NCBI RefSeq assembly: GCF_009826895.1 | Contig: NZ_WUMV01000002.1 | Coordinates: forward strand, 124,001 to 188,000 | DNA length: 64,000 bases | From: Stappia sediminis | GTDB taxonomy: Bacteria; Pseudomonadota; Alphaproteobacteria; Rhizobiales; Stappiaceae | Reading direction: 5' to 3' | The notes under the pieces: model-generated | Databases searched by the model: none | What the model saw: only the letters and a program-made list of their open reading frames with translations | Told to the model about the DNA's origin: nothing | Part shown: positions 13,771 to 42,692 of the stretch, piece by piece | Numbering within the stretch: the first letter of the stretch is position 1 | Layout of the letters: every line of letters starts with the position of its first letter | Translations under genes and position numbers: made by a program

Positions 13771-14199
13771 ATGCGCCACGCAAATCGCGGCCGCAAGCTC
13801 AACCGGACTTCGAGCCACCGCAAGGCCATGTTCGCCAACATGGCCGCCTCGCTCATCCAGCATGAGCAGATCGTGACCACCCTGCCGAAGGCGAAGGAGC
13901 TTCGCCCGATCGTGGAAAAGCTTGTGACCCTTGGCAAGCGCGGCGACCTGCACGCCCGCCGTCAGGCGATCTCGCAGATCCGCGACGTTGAGCTTGTTCG
14001 CAAGCTCTTCGACACGCTCGCCGAGCGCTACAAGGAACGTCAGGGCGGCTATACGCGCGTCCTCAAGGCGGGCTTCCGCCATGGCGACAATGCGCCGCTC
14101 GCAGTGATCGAGTTCGTCGATCGTGACGAGACTGCGCGCGGTGCCGTTGACCGCGAGCGCGCCGAGGCCGAGGAAGCGACGGCCGAGGTTGCGGCGTAA
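13771..14199 (+). CDS. rplQ: 50S ribosomal protein L17
   Basis: The 142-residue product starts [20 protein letters not shown] and is L17, near the tunnel exit. It carries an Ala- and Glu-rich C-terminal tail beyond the length of the E. coli protein, as is common in alphaproteobacteria. It is the last gene of the ribosomal cluster; AGGAAGGAG precedes the start and a terminator lies 25 bases downstream. Confidence 0.98.
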
Positions 14200-14224
14200 T
14201 CCGCCGCGGATCGGAATTTGGGGG

Positions 14225-14251
14225 AGGGCGGTCCGGCGGGCCGCCCTTTTT
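14225..14251 (+). terminator. Intrinsic terminator of the ribosomal protein operon
   Basis: AGGGCGGTCC (14225-14234) pairs with GGGCCGCCCT (14238-14247) over ten base pairs including one G-T, with a three-base loop, followed by a run of T. It is one of the clearest terminators in the window and marks the end of the rplQ transcript. Confidence 0.92.
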
Positions 14252-14368
14252 CGTTCCAAACCCGGAAATATGTTGGTTCGTGCCCTGGCCGATCTTATGT
14301 GGCAATACGGGGCAACGCGTGACGAACCGATTCGTCCGCGAGCCGAAAGACGATCGGGAACTGTTGAA

Positions 14369-15808
14369 ATGACCGTTAACGCCGGAATCTCCTCGCGCTT
14401 CTTTTCCGTTTTGTTGGTGATCGCCTGTCTGGTCGCTTCGCCTTTTGCCAATGCGCAGGAGCGCAGCGTCCCGCGTACGCAGGATCAGCTTCGCTTGTCC
14501 TTTGCCCCGGTGGTGGATCGCGTTTCGAACGCGGTTGTCAATGTCTACGCAAGCCGCACGGTCGTGCAGCGTCAGCAGGTCTCGCCCTTTTTCAACGATC
14601 CTTTCTTCCGCCGGTTTTTCGGTGGGCCGGACAATTTCGATTTCGGCCGCCCGCGCGAGCGTGTGCAGTCGTCGCTGGGGTCCGGCGTCATTATTTCGGC
14701 GGACGGGGTCATCGTCACCAACCATCACGTGATCAAGGACGCGGACGAGGTTCGTGTCGCGCTGTCCGACCGGCGCGAGTTCGATGCGAAGATCGTGCTG
14801 AAGGACGAGCGTACCGATCTTGCCGTCCTGAAGATCATGGAAGACGCCGGATCGCTTCCCTTCGTGGAATTTGCCGATTCGGACGATCTTGCGGTGGGTG
14901 ACATCGTCCTTGCCATCGGCAATCCTTTCGGCGTCGGCCAGACGGTAACGCAAGGCATCGTTTCCGCACTTGCCCGTACGCGTGTCGGCGTGACCGACTA
15001 TCAGTTCTTCATCCAGACGGACGCGGCCATCAATCCGGGTAATTCGGGCGGTGCGCTGGTCGATGTCGACGGCAAGCTCGTCGGCATCAATACGGCGATA
15101 TTCTCGCGCTCTGGCGGCTCGAACGGGATAGGCTTCGCCATTCCCGCCAACATGGTGCATTTCGTTGCTGCGGCGGCGCAGGGTGACGGCATCGTCCGCA
15201 GGCCATGGCTCGGCGCGGGCATTCAGCTTGTCAGCGCGGAAATCGCCGAGGCGCTCCGCCTTGACCGCCCGCGTGGCGTGTTGGTTACGGGTGTATTCAA
15301 GGGTAGCCCGGCGGACGAAGCGGGCCTTGAGGTAGGCGATCTCATTCTTCAGGTCGGTGGCAACGAGGTCAGCGATCCGGATAGTTTCGGTTACCGCTTC
15401 GCAACCAATCCGCTCGGTTCGACAGCGGAATTCACGGTATTGCGTGAGCAACGCACGCTGAAGATCGGTGTCGAGCTCAGGGCTGCGCCCGAAACGGTGC
15501 CTCGGGATCGCCGCCGTATTGATACGCATTCGCCTTTCCGTGGAAGCGTGGTCATGAACCTTTCGCCTGCGGTGGCGGAGGAGTTGCGTCTCGATGCTTT
15601 TGAGGAAGGCGTCGTCGTTGCCGACATCGAACCGGGCTCGACGGCAAACCGCGTCGGCCTTCAAAAGGGTGATATCATCCTGGTGATCAACGGGCGCAAC
15701 ATTGGCTCCACTCGCGAGCTTGAGCAGGTCTCGGATTCCGATCCCGGCGTCTGGCGGCTTGAGATCAAGCGCGGCGAAAGGGTCATCCGCTTTGCCCTGA
15801 GGGGATAG
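14369..15808 (+). CDS. DegP/HtrA-family periplasmic serine protease
   Basis: A trypsin-like protease and chaperone that degrades misfolded envelope proteins. The 479-residue product has a signal peptide (about residues 1-30, ending FANAQ), a protease domain with catalytic His120 (TNHHVI), Asp150 (RTDLAVL) and Ser226 (GNSGGAL), and two PDZ domains (about 260-360 and 395-475). The frame is open upstream into rplQ, but the ATG at 14369 gives a proper signal peptide. It follows the rplQ terminator, so it should have its own promoter. rarA lies 31 bases downstream, and this neighbour pair is common in Rhizobiales. Which of DegP, DegQ or MucD it equals cannot be settled here. Confidence 0.95.
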   Translation: MTVNAGISSRFFSVLLVIACLVASPFANAQERSVPRTQDQLRLSFAPVVDRVSNAVVNVYASRTVVQRQQVSPFFNDPFFRRFFGGPDNFDFGRPRERVQSSLGSGVIISADGVIVTNHHVIKDADEVRVALSDRREFDAKIVLKDERTDLAVLKIMEDAGSLPFVEFADSDDLAVGDIVLAIGNPFGVGQTVTQGIVSALARTRVGVTDYQFFIQTDAAINPGNSGGALVDVDGKLVGINTAIFSRSGGSNGIGFAIPANMVHFVAAAAQGDGIVRRPWLGAGIQLVSAEIAEALRLDRPRGVLVTGVFKGSPADEAGLEVGDLILQVGGNEVSDPDSFGYRFATNPLGSTAEFTVLREQRTLKIGVELRAAPETVPRDRRRIDTHSPFRGSVVMNLSPAVAEELRLDAFEEGVVVADIEPGSTANRVGLQKGDIILVINGRNIGSTRELEQVSDSDPGVWRLEIKRGERVIRFALRG

Positions 15809-17293: not shown

Positions 17294-18826
17294 TCAAAGC
17301 GGAATGTTGTCGTGCTTCTTCCAGGGGTTTTGCTGTGCCTTGCCGCGCAGCAGTGCGAGTGCGCGCGACACGCGCCGCCGGGTCGAATGCGGCAGGATCA
17401 CCTCGTCGATATAGCCGCGTTCCGCGGCGACGAACGGGTTGGCGAAGCGGTCTTCATAGTCCTTCGTGCGCTTGGCGATCTTGTCCTTGTCGCTCAGTTC
17501 CGAGCGGTAGAGGATCTCGACTGCCCCTTTCGCGCCCATGACGGCGATTTCCGCGCTCGGCCATGCGTAATTGATGTCGCCGCGAATGTGCTTTGAGCTC
17601 ATCACGTCATAGGCCCCGCCATAGGCTTTGCGGGTGATCACCGTCACCTTCGGGACCGTCGCCTCGGCATAGGCGAAGAGCAGCTTCGCGCCGTGCTTGA
17701 TGAGCCCGCCGTATTCCTGTGCCGTGCCGGGCAGGAAACCCGGAACGTCGACGAAGGTGACGATCGGAATGTTGAAGCAGTCGCAGAACCGCACGAAGCG
17801 GGCGGCCTTGCGGCTTGCGTCGGAATCGAGCACGCCGGCCAGCACCATCGGCTGGTTGGCGACGAAGCCGACGGTCCGCCCCTCGATACGGCCGAAACCG
17901 GTGATGATATTGCCTGCGAAGCTTTCCTGGATCTCGAAGAAGTCGCCCTCGTCGACCGTCTTCTGGATCAGCTCCTTCATGTCGTAGGGCTTGTTCGGAT
18001 TGTCCGGCACAAGGGTGTCGAGGCTCATGTCCACCCGGTTAGGGTCGTCATAGGAGGCAAGCTCGGGAAGGTCTGCGGTGTTGTTCGCGGGAAGGAAATC
18101 GACCAGCCTGCGCATCTGCTGCAAGGCTTCCACGTCGTTGTCGAAGGCGCCGTCGGCGATGGATGATTTCGTGGTGTGGACTGAAGCGCCGCCAAGCTGC
18201 TCCGCCGTCACCGTTTCGTTGGTGACGGTCTTCACCACGTCCGGTCCGGTCACGAACATGTAGGAAGTGTCGCGCACCATGAAGATGAAGTCGGTCATCG
18301 CCGGCGAATAGACGTCGCCGCCCGCGCAAGGGCCCATGATGACTGAAATCTGCGGGATGACGCCGGAGGCGAGCACATTGCGCTGGAACACTTCGCCGTA
18401 GCCGCCGAGGGCCGCGACACCTTCCTGGATGCGCGCGCCGCCCGCGTCGAAAATGCCGATGATCGGCGCGCGGTTCTGCAGCGCCATGTCCTGGATCTTG
18501 ATGATCTTCTGGGCGTGCGTTTCGGAGAGCGAGCCGCCGAAGACGGTAAAGTCCTTGGAAAAGAGATAGACGGTACGCCCGTTGATCGTGCCCCAGCCCG
18601 TCACCACGCCATCGCCCGGGATGTGGCTTTCGTCCATGCCGAAGTCGGTGCAGCGGTGCACCTTGAACATGTCGAATTCTTCGAACGAGCCTTCGTCGAG
18701 GAGGATTTCGATGCGTTCGCGCGCCGTCAGCTTGCCGCGTGTATGCTGGGCGTCGATGCGCCTTTGGCCACCGCCGAGACGGGCGGTCGCGCGCCTGCTT
18801 TCCAGTTCGGCCAGGACTTCCTTCAT
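17294..18826 (-). CDS. pccB: Propionyl-CoA carboxylase beta subunit
   Basis: The carboxyltransferase subunit moves CO2 from carboxybiotin to propionyl-CoA, giving methylmalonyl-CoA. The 510-residue product carries the N- and C-terminal carboxyltransferase halves, with [20 protein letters not shown] near the N-terminus and the typical PccB segment [21 protein letters not shown] chose the ATG at 18826, which has AGAGGA eight bases upstream and gives the family length; the frame is open to 18973. The alpha subunit is encoded about 25.5 kb away (44294-46306). The second carboxylase beta subunit in this window (61563) matches methylcrotonyl-CoA carboxylase instead. Confidence 0.95.
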
Positions 18827-19018: not shown

Positions 19019-19065
19019 ACCTCTCCCTCGAAGGGAGAGGTCGGCGCGAATGCGCCGGGTGAGGG
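19019..19065. repeat. Palindromic intergenic repeat, short copy
   Basis: Two adjacent hairpins: ACCTCTCCCT/AGGGAGAGGT (19019-19028 and 19032-19041) and CGGCGC-GAAT-GCGCCG (19042-19057), ending GGTGAGGG. Bases 19033-19065 are identical to 42176-42208. It lies in the 274-base gap between pccB and the ATP12 gene. Repeats of this type are dispersed in many alphaproteobacterial genomes. Confidence 0.85.
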
Positions 19066-41830: not shown

Positions 41831-41917
41831 TGGTGCGGTCGAGAAGACTCGAACTTCCACGGGTTTTACCCCACAGCGACCTCAACGCTGCGCGTCTACC
41901 AATTCCGCCACGACCGC
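41831..41917 (-). tRNA. tRNA-Leu (anticodon GAG)
   Basis: The minus strand folds as a class II tRNA: acceptor GCGGTCG/CGACCGC followed by encoded CCA, D-arm with GGAATTGGTAGACGC, anticodon stem CAGCG/CGCTG with loop TTGAGGT (anticodon GAG), a long variable arm (GGGTAAAACCC) and T-arm GAAGTTCGAGTCTTC. It should decode CUC and CUU. Confidence 0.97.
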
Positions 41918-42252
41918 ATATGTTGTCCGTACCCCTCAGGGCCGGCGGAGCCTTCCTCTATCAAATAGGATTCTGCCGCGCAAGAGGCGGATGCGAAGAT
42001 ATTCACATTCCTCGATAAAACGCGCGAATCCGCGCGTCGCGGCTGTGGACGGCGGGCCGAAGCTGTTGCCGTCAGCTTGCTCGCAGGCTTGGTGTTTTTG
42101 CTGAAGCTGGGCTACTTGCGCCTCACCTCTCCACACGAAGTCGGATGTTTCCGACTTCGTCACCTCTCCCCCGGTGGGAGAGGTCGGCGCGAATGCGCCG
42201 GGTGAGGGGGGCGAAAATGCTCGTAGCGATATTTTAAACGGAAGGCGATGGA
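41918..42252. other. Intergenic region with a palindromic repeat
   Basis: The 335-base gap between tRNA-Leu and the FliN-like gene contains the branched repeat at 42121-42208 and the promoter for the tRNA, which I cannot place. No supported protein gene. Confidence 0.6.
42121..42208. repeat. Branched palindromic repeat, long copy
   Basis: CCTCACC (42121-42127) can pair with GGTGAGG (42201-42207), closing three internal hairpins: ACGAAGTCGGA/TCCGACTTCGT (42135-42145, 42150-42160), ACCTCTCCC/GGGAGAGGT (42162-42170, 42176-42184) and CGGCGC/GCGCCG (42185-42190, 42195-42200). The 33 bases 42176-42208 are identical to 19033-19065. The first hairpin is absent from that shorter copy and is flanked here by a direct repeat of CACCTCTCC (42124-42132, 42161-42169). 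Confidence 0.85.
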
Positions 42253-42519
42253 TCAGATCGGACCTTCGGTGCGTGCCGGGCGCACGTGCGGGCCCCGCGT
42301 CAGTACTTCGGTCACCGATATGCCGATCTTGTCGCCCTGCAGGACAACCTGCCCGCGCGCGACCGGGATATTGTTCGCCAGAATCTGAACGTCGTCGTCC
42401 TCATGGGCGTCAAGCTCGATCACGGCGCCACGACCCATGCGCAGGAGCTGGTGAACCGGCATTTCGTTCTTGCCGAGGACAACTGAAATATCGACCGAGA
42501 TATTGTCGAAGGTGGTCAT
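42253..42519 (-). CDS. Orphan FliN-like (SpoA domain) protein
   Basis: The 88-residue product is a single SpoA domain (VDISVVLGKNEMPVHQLLRM, RGAVIELD, ANNIPVARGQVVLQGDKIGI) like the C-terminal part of the flagellar switch protein FliN. No other flagellar or type III secretion genes lie nearby, so it may be a second FliN or serve a different partner. A GGAAAGCAAGA site precedes the ATG at 42519. Confidence 0.88.
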   Translation of the reverse strand: MTTFDNISVDISVVLGKNEMPVHQLLRMGRGAVIELDAHEDDDVQILANNIPVARGQVVLQGDKIGISVTEVLTRGPHVRPARTEGPI

Positions 42520-42692
42520 TCTTGCTTTCCGGCGTTAAGGAATAGGTTTATCGAACGAGGTTCGCCGGTCCATTCAGCTTTTCCCGGAAGAAGGGATATG
42601 CGAAGCGGTTACCAGCGGTTAACCGATGTCTCGCATTTCGCCAGAACGTGGTTAAGAAACCCTTAAAGCATCTGCCCATACGTAACTGAATC

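Follow-up and report, generated by a model that had tools for sequence, protein, structure and literature searches.

Background

REPINs, or REP doublets moved by RAYT (Y1) transposases, comprise two small inverted hairpins with a short spacer and occur in many intergenic copies that have no coding capacity (PMC3116915, PMC2817692). A repeated hairpin unit can also lie inside a longer palindrome, as in the REP dimers of A. variabilis (GTAG-15), T. roseum (GTAG-23) and H. neapolitanus (CGTC-1) described by Di Nocera et al.; each of these species has a single palindrome type, and in two of them the target palindrome was not found in free form (PMC3733652). Loop variants in Bradyrhizobium are mentioned in the same study (PMC3733652). 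CGTC REPs of alphaproteobacteria have no dedicated transposase (PMC3733652), and the origin and spread of such transposase-less REP-type repeats is an open question. REP palindromes are also the targets of insertion sequences (ISs), among them IS1397, ISKpn1, IS621, ISPpu9/10 and ISRm19/22 (PMC1525189), and the TIRYT terminal repeats are characterized by a GGGGWSAS motif (PMC3733652).

Here we describe an 88-nt intergenic element of Stappia sediminis, located in a 64,000-nucleotide stretch of contig NZ_WUMV01000002.1 (hereafter, the window), together with a cassette of ~60 nt, comprising hairpin A, a linker and hairpin B, that bears on this question. We consider it fairly probable that the element is a copy of a REP-like palindrome carrying a remnant of the cassette, and that the cassette is REPIN-like and enters palindrome loops. 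The cassette shares the two inverted hairpins of REPINs but lacks the GTAG tag (the feet of A are GCC/GTC/ACC and those of B are variable) and a repeat-flanked RAYT, and its doublet lies within the loops of other repeats. Unlike the REP dimers, it has several unrelated hosts, plain host copies are common, and one cassette type spans at least 21 genera. CGTC REPs serve as one of its hosts in Azorhizobium, whereas hairpins A and B themselves have no CGTC end, CCA tail or stem starting with AT. In contrast to the REP-targeting ISs, which code for a transposase, it contains no gene.

Architecture of the window element

In the original prediction, CCTCACC (42121-42127) and GGTGAGG (42201-42207) close an element holding three hairpins (42121-42208; all element features are on the forward strand). 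Direct reading and a DNA fold agree with this description, the single strand folding at -35.8 kcal/mol as compared with -14.8 +/- 2.6 for shuffles (z = -8.1; 0/200). The first hairpin, CGAAGTCGGATGTTTCCGACTTCG, is hairpin A (ACGAAGTCGGA-TGTT-TCCGACTTCGT, 11 bp, 42135-42160) and is flanked, as had been noticed, by a direct repeat of CACCTCTCC at 42124-42132 and 42161-42169. It is followed by a plain host palindrome with a 9-bp stem, ACCTCTCCC-CCGGT-GGGAGAGGT (42162-42184), and by the second host hairpin, CGGCGC..GCGCCG (6 bp, 42185-42200), and the repeat is composed of CCTCTCCC-loop-GGGAGAGG, the GGCGCG hairpin and a GGGTGAGGG tail. The 33-nt core GGGAGAGGTCGGCGCGAATGCGCCGGGTGAGGG (42176-42208) is indeed identical at 19033-19065, where the shorter copy (19019-19065) is a plain type-I repeat without hairpin A, closing stem or cassette, and the Hongsoonwoonella orthologue of this copy has the same loop, unchanged. 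The element lies between fliN (FliMN_C, 42253-42522) and tRNA-Leu(GAG) (41831-41917), both on the minus strand.

In a further genome (G314), at four loci (L391, L394, L396 and L398), a small extra CCGCG-GA-CGCGG hairpin separates the host arm from hairpin A, producing a four-way junction that resembles that of the window element.

Whole-genome counts in S. sediminis (4.79 Mb) showed the parts of the element to be repeated, as had been anticipated. There are 34 CCTCTCCC-N1..20-GGGAGAGG palindromes as compared with 0 for the reversed control, and 32 GGGAGAGG..GGTGAGGG palindromes and four exact copies of the first hairpin, again with 0 in the control; more copies occur in relatives. As a short palindrome with many intergenic copies, the host repeat qualifies as a REP. 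It comes in two flavours, type I with a second GGCGCG..CGCGCC hairpin and the GGGTGAGGG tail, and another carrying GGGttAGGGTGAGGG, with loops that are typically 3-5 nt long. At C10:441251-441708, five palindromes of the two flavours alternate in a ~219-bp tandem array. In a plasmid search, the host palindrome had no more than weak matches, which were in Azospirillum and Streptomyces.

A two-hairpin cassette

At the three other hairpin A sites of S. sediminis, a linker and hairpin B (CAAACTCGGGAACACCCGAGTTTG) come after A, and the A-B pair fills the palindrome loop; this arrangement, loop position included, is also found in Hongsoonwoonella zoysiae SY4-7 and Stappia albiluteola F7233. The intact cassette consists of the hairpin A core GAAGTCGG-ATGTTT-CCGACTTC, a linker of ~8-15 nt and hairpin B, and 144 of the 155 distinct copies with the A loop have B shortly after A. 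A mobile-looking unit of the kind originally proposed is present, but it is this A-linker-B cassette and not the 88-nt element. The first hairpin was correctly seen as a unit added to an element made of units, though not an arbitrary one: A elsewhere is normally part of A-B. The usual site is the loop of a palindrome and not a position beside one, which makes the window copy atypical.

In many copies the loop of hairpin B resembles the A loop read as its reverse complement. The B loops include GTAAAC (30 copies), GAACAC (27) and AAACAT, the exact reverse complement of ATGTTT (21), and for most copies R2 gives matches on both strands. Because A resembles the reverse complement of B, the cassette can be regarded as an inverted doublet, similar to a REPIN. 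Kissing-loop pairing between the A and B loops was considered and rejected, as it is a trivial consequence of their inverted arrangement and does not hold for several of the loops in Azorhizobium. Among 20 diverse, hand-picked cassettes, the arms of B covary, with 99.3% of cells paired and double-sided changes in 11 of 21 pairs (0/500 shuffles). In S. albiluteola, the B arms differ yet still pair, and the B loop is unchanged. Hairpin A is invariant in the 20-row set because it served as the search key; among cassettes found by covariance model, the arms of A vary too, with CGGATGTTTCCG often kept.

Distribution and host palindromes

The exact hairpin A core occurs in S. sediminis (4 copies), H. 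zoysiae (6) and S. albiluteola (2), and a wider exact scan identified 115 genome stretches, nearly all in Hyphomicrobiales, which rules out a restriction of hairpin A to the genus. The covariance model of the cassette matched 37 of 298 sampled genomes of the order, in 21 of 122 genera, and gave tens of copies in some genomes, raw model hits being counted on both strands. Nearly all of the stretches that were read have A, the linker and B, in this order, enclosed by the two P1 arms, the cassette typically occupying the apical loop, and this loop-filled architecture was also found in Aquabacter, Bradyrhizobium LHD-71, Chelatococcus, Bauldia, Bosea, Hansschlegelia, Methylopila and others.

The repeated palindromes that hold the cassette are unrelated in sequence. 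They include the GGGAGAGG class, classical CGTC REPs, GGATCGC..GCGATCC-type hairpins (L267 and L278), CAACGACGTCC..GGACGTCGTTG in genome G084 and, in relatives of Chelatococcus, CCATCGG palindromes adjoining CGTC REPs. Plain and filled forms coexist in Azorhizobium oxalatiphilum, where the CGTC REP is 32 nt when plain (CGTCATGCCCGGACTTGATCCGGGCATCCACG) and 90-92 nt when filled, and a GGGAGAGGG repeat is 32-34 nt when plain and 93-95 nt when filled. The size gap is about 60 nt, plain copies lie in the same 8-kb pieces as filled ones, and plain and filled arms are identical within this genome. The sequence of B tracks the type of host palindrome in Azorhizobium, and many filled copies there may owe their spread to the multiplication of complete filled repeats, not to separate insertions. 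The cassette lies in either orientation: the tail of the GGGAGAGG-class REP is 3' of the cassette in 14 copies and 5' in 19, and both orientations occur within one MAG, JAIESR (L269/L363 as opposed to L308).

The arms on either side of the cassette show strong pairing in 66% of copies, as compared with 11% of shuffled flanks. About a third of copies have no strong flank-arm pairing in the same test, and a few (L249, L294 and L302) appear intragenic, with flanks resembling coding sequence; both observations count against entry into palindrome loops. Single-A copies are few (L207, L211 and L271 among them), and in MAG MCMED-G09 the repeat positions gave no sign that the single-A copies L271 and L281 are the ends of an autonomous element.

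Orthologous sites

At C12:52743, S. sediminis has CCCTCTCCC-TTCGA-GGGAGAGGG with a loop of 5 nt, and the H. zoysiae orthologue has 64 nt in place of this loop, reading B-linker-A on that strand between flanks that are ~89-90% identical. Since this short loop is like those of plain copies in general, the comparison of the two sequences makes a gain in H. zoysiae the simpler reading. This was the only clean orthologous pair of plain and filled sites that was found; several other filled sites in these two genomes had no alignable intergenic DNA. At C11:574k of S. sediminis there is a single A-B, and the same site in H. zoysiae (C2:752632-752773) has a tandem A-B-A-B.

The comparison with relatives lacking the copy, envisaged from the outset, showed that the window element itself is missing with its surroundings, about 200 bp in all (42054-42252), in both relatives, where the orthologous interval between fliN and tRNA-Leu is an empty site. 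Elsewhere in the window, at 14199-14451, the orthologous intergenic region of S. albiluteola contains a cassette-bearing repeat that is present neither in the window nor in Hongsoonwoonella.

Transposase search and novelty

A link to a REP-associated (Y1) transposase, which the original prediction had raised, did not hold. Y1_Tnp domains, covering RAYT and IS200/IS605, were absent from the S. sediminis, H. zoysiae and S. albiluteola genomes, and from 12 of the 17 cassette-bearing genomes tested. At the 33 Y1 loci examined elsewhere, no cassette was present and no host palindrome lay within about 1.5 kb, which sets the element apart from the TIRYT repeats as well, even though the host palindrome arm GGGGAGAG fits their motif. 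Given the absence of Y1 from the genus and the cassette-free Y1 loci, an association with RAYT is rejected. The failure to find a transposase, an autonomous copy or a target duplication for the cassette counts against entry into palindrome loops. Plain and filled copies differ by no duplication beyond an ambiguity of 1-2 nt, the cassette termini are hairpins, not a pair of TIRs, and no coding copy was seen among the loci read from partly sampled collections.

A text search of the literature found no paper containing the hairpin A sequence. REP dimers within palindromes and REP-targeting ISs are already known; as far as the partly covered literature goes, we found no description of one cassette common to unrelated REPs across an order, which is apparently new. 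We place the cassette among REPIN-like repeats, with the insertion step and the enzyme as proposals. On the best reading, it is a miniature element that homes to palindrome loops by an apparently non-RAYT route.

Origin of the cassette and of the window copy

We propose that the cassette is REPIN-like, non-autonomous mobile DNA that would enter palindrome loops exposed in cruciforms or in single strands, each host repeat family serving as a landing pad, and that it may be moved by an enzyme other than a resident Y1/RAYT transposase. Filled repeats could afterwards also multiply as repeats. More tentatively, and as a possibility short of being probable, the cassette may represent a transposase-less (non-RAYT) class of double-hairpin DNA homing to loops in whichever palindromic repeats the host genome carries, a hyperparasite of REPs across Hyphomicrobiales moved by a not-yet-described single-strand or cruciform-loop mechanism.

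The main alternative is that ordinary REP families comprise filled and plain elements as variants of the loop, with loops swapped by template switching or recombination between identical arms and a cassette that has no mobility of its own. The identity of filled and plain arms within one genome fits this, as do the correlation of B with host type in Azorhizobium, the slippage shown by the tandem A-B-A-B of H. zoysiae opposite a single A-B, and the lack of a transposase. It leaves unexplained, however, how the same cassette came to lie in unrelated arms (the CGTC REP, GGGAGAGG, GGATCGC and CAACGACGTCC) and in both orientations within one family, and we regard it as rather unlikely. Much less plausible still is a structured RNA, such as a terminator, an mRNA stabiliser or an sRNA, that selection maintains through its transcript, with incidental mobility. 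The strong covariation of the B arms, the conserved loops and the intergenic position between fliN and tRNA-Leu would suit such an element, but it has no Rfam match, the tRNA being the only match in the window, and close relatives lack it at the orthologous position. The pairs are Watson-Crick with few exceptions, and the departures show no consistent strand (G-T 34 and A-C 17 in the B arms; G-T 44 and A-C 71 in the host arms), which argues against selection on a transcript.

For the window copy, the simplest account is that of a rearranged derivative in which A would have been kept beside a plain palindrome and B lost. A filled copy has, for example, the order CACCTCTCCCCG-A-GCACCTATCTTC-B-GCGGGGAGAGG, and the window reads CACCTCTCCACA-A-TCACCTCTCCCCCGGTGGGAGAGG. 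By comparison with filled elements (L020-L022), the first CACCTCTCC corresponds to the 5' arm of a host palindrome that is filled by a cassette, and the second aligns with the A-B linker CACCTATCTTC while also serving as 5' arm in the plain palindrome. Recombination of a filled with a plain element, or slippage, may have taken place between the linker CACCTATC and the arm CACCTCTC, an event that would have deleted B and left A adjoining an intact plain palindrome. The perfect 9-bp repeat on both sides of A, and the existence of a few single-A copies, could instead suggest that hairpin A was inserted alone in an IS-like event with a 9-bp target duplication, CACCTCTCC, and is no remnant of A-B. 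We consider this improbable: the single-A copies read elsewhere have no 9-bp repeat, and other copies in the genus have a similar CCTCTCC arm to the left of A and often a related CACCTATC/CCATCTATC linker to its right, followed by B, so that the repeat is probably older than the loss of B.

For the cassette at large, a sharp-edged insert in several unrelated palindrome loops, with plain copies alongside, provides a countable event, the loop being either plain or filled. Scoring it would test whether a palindrome loop can itself be the target of a small mobile DNA.

Cassettes at rearranged segments

In S. sediminis, a segment of ~8.4 kb between opposed cassette repeats at C12:521342 (+) and C12:529787 (-) is inverted relative to Hongsoonwoonella, where no cassette was seen at the junctions. 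Synteny breaks at both cassettes in the Chelatococcus orthologue comparison. In genome G314 (L422), two inverted cassette repeats of ~200 bp (1373-1579 and 17438-17644) bound a 16-kb segment, and matches to congeners break off near both.
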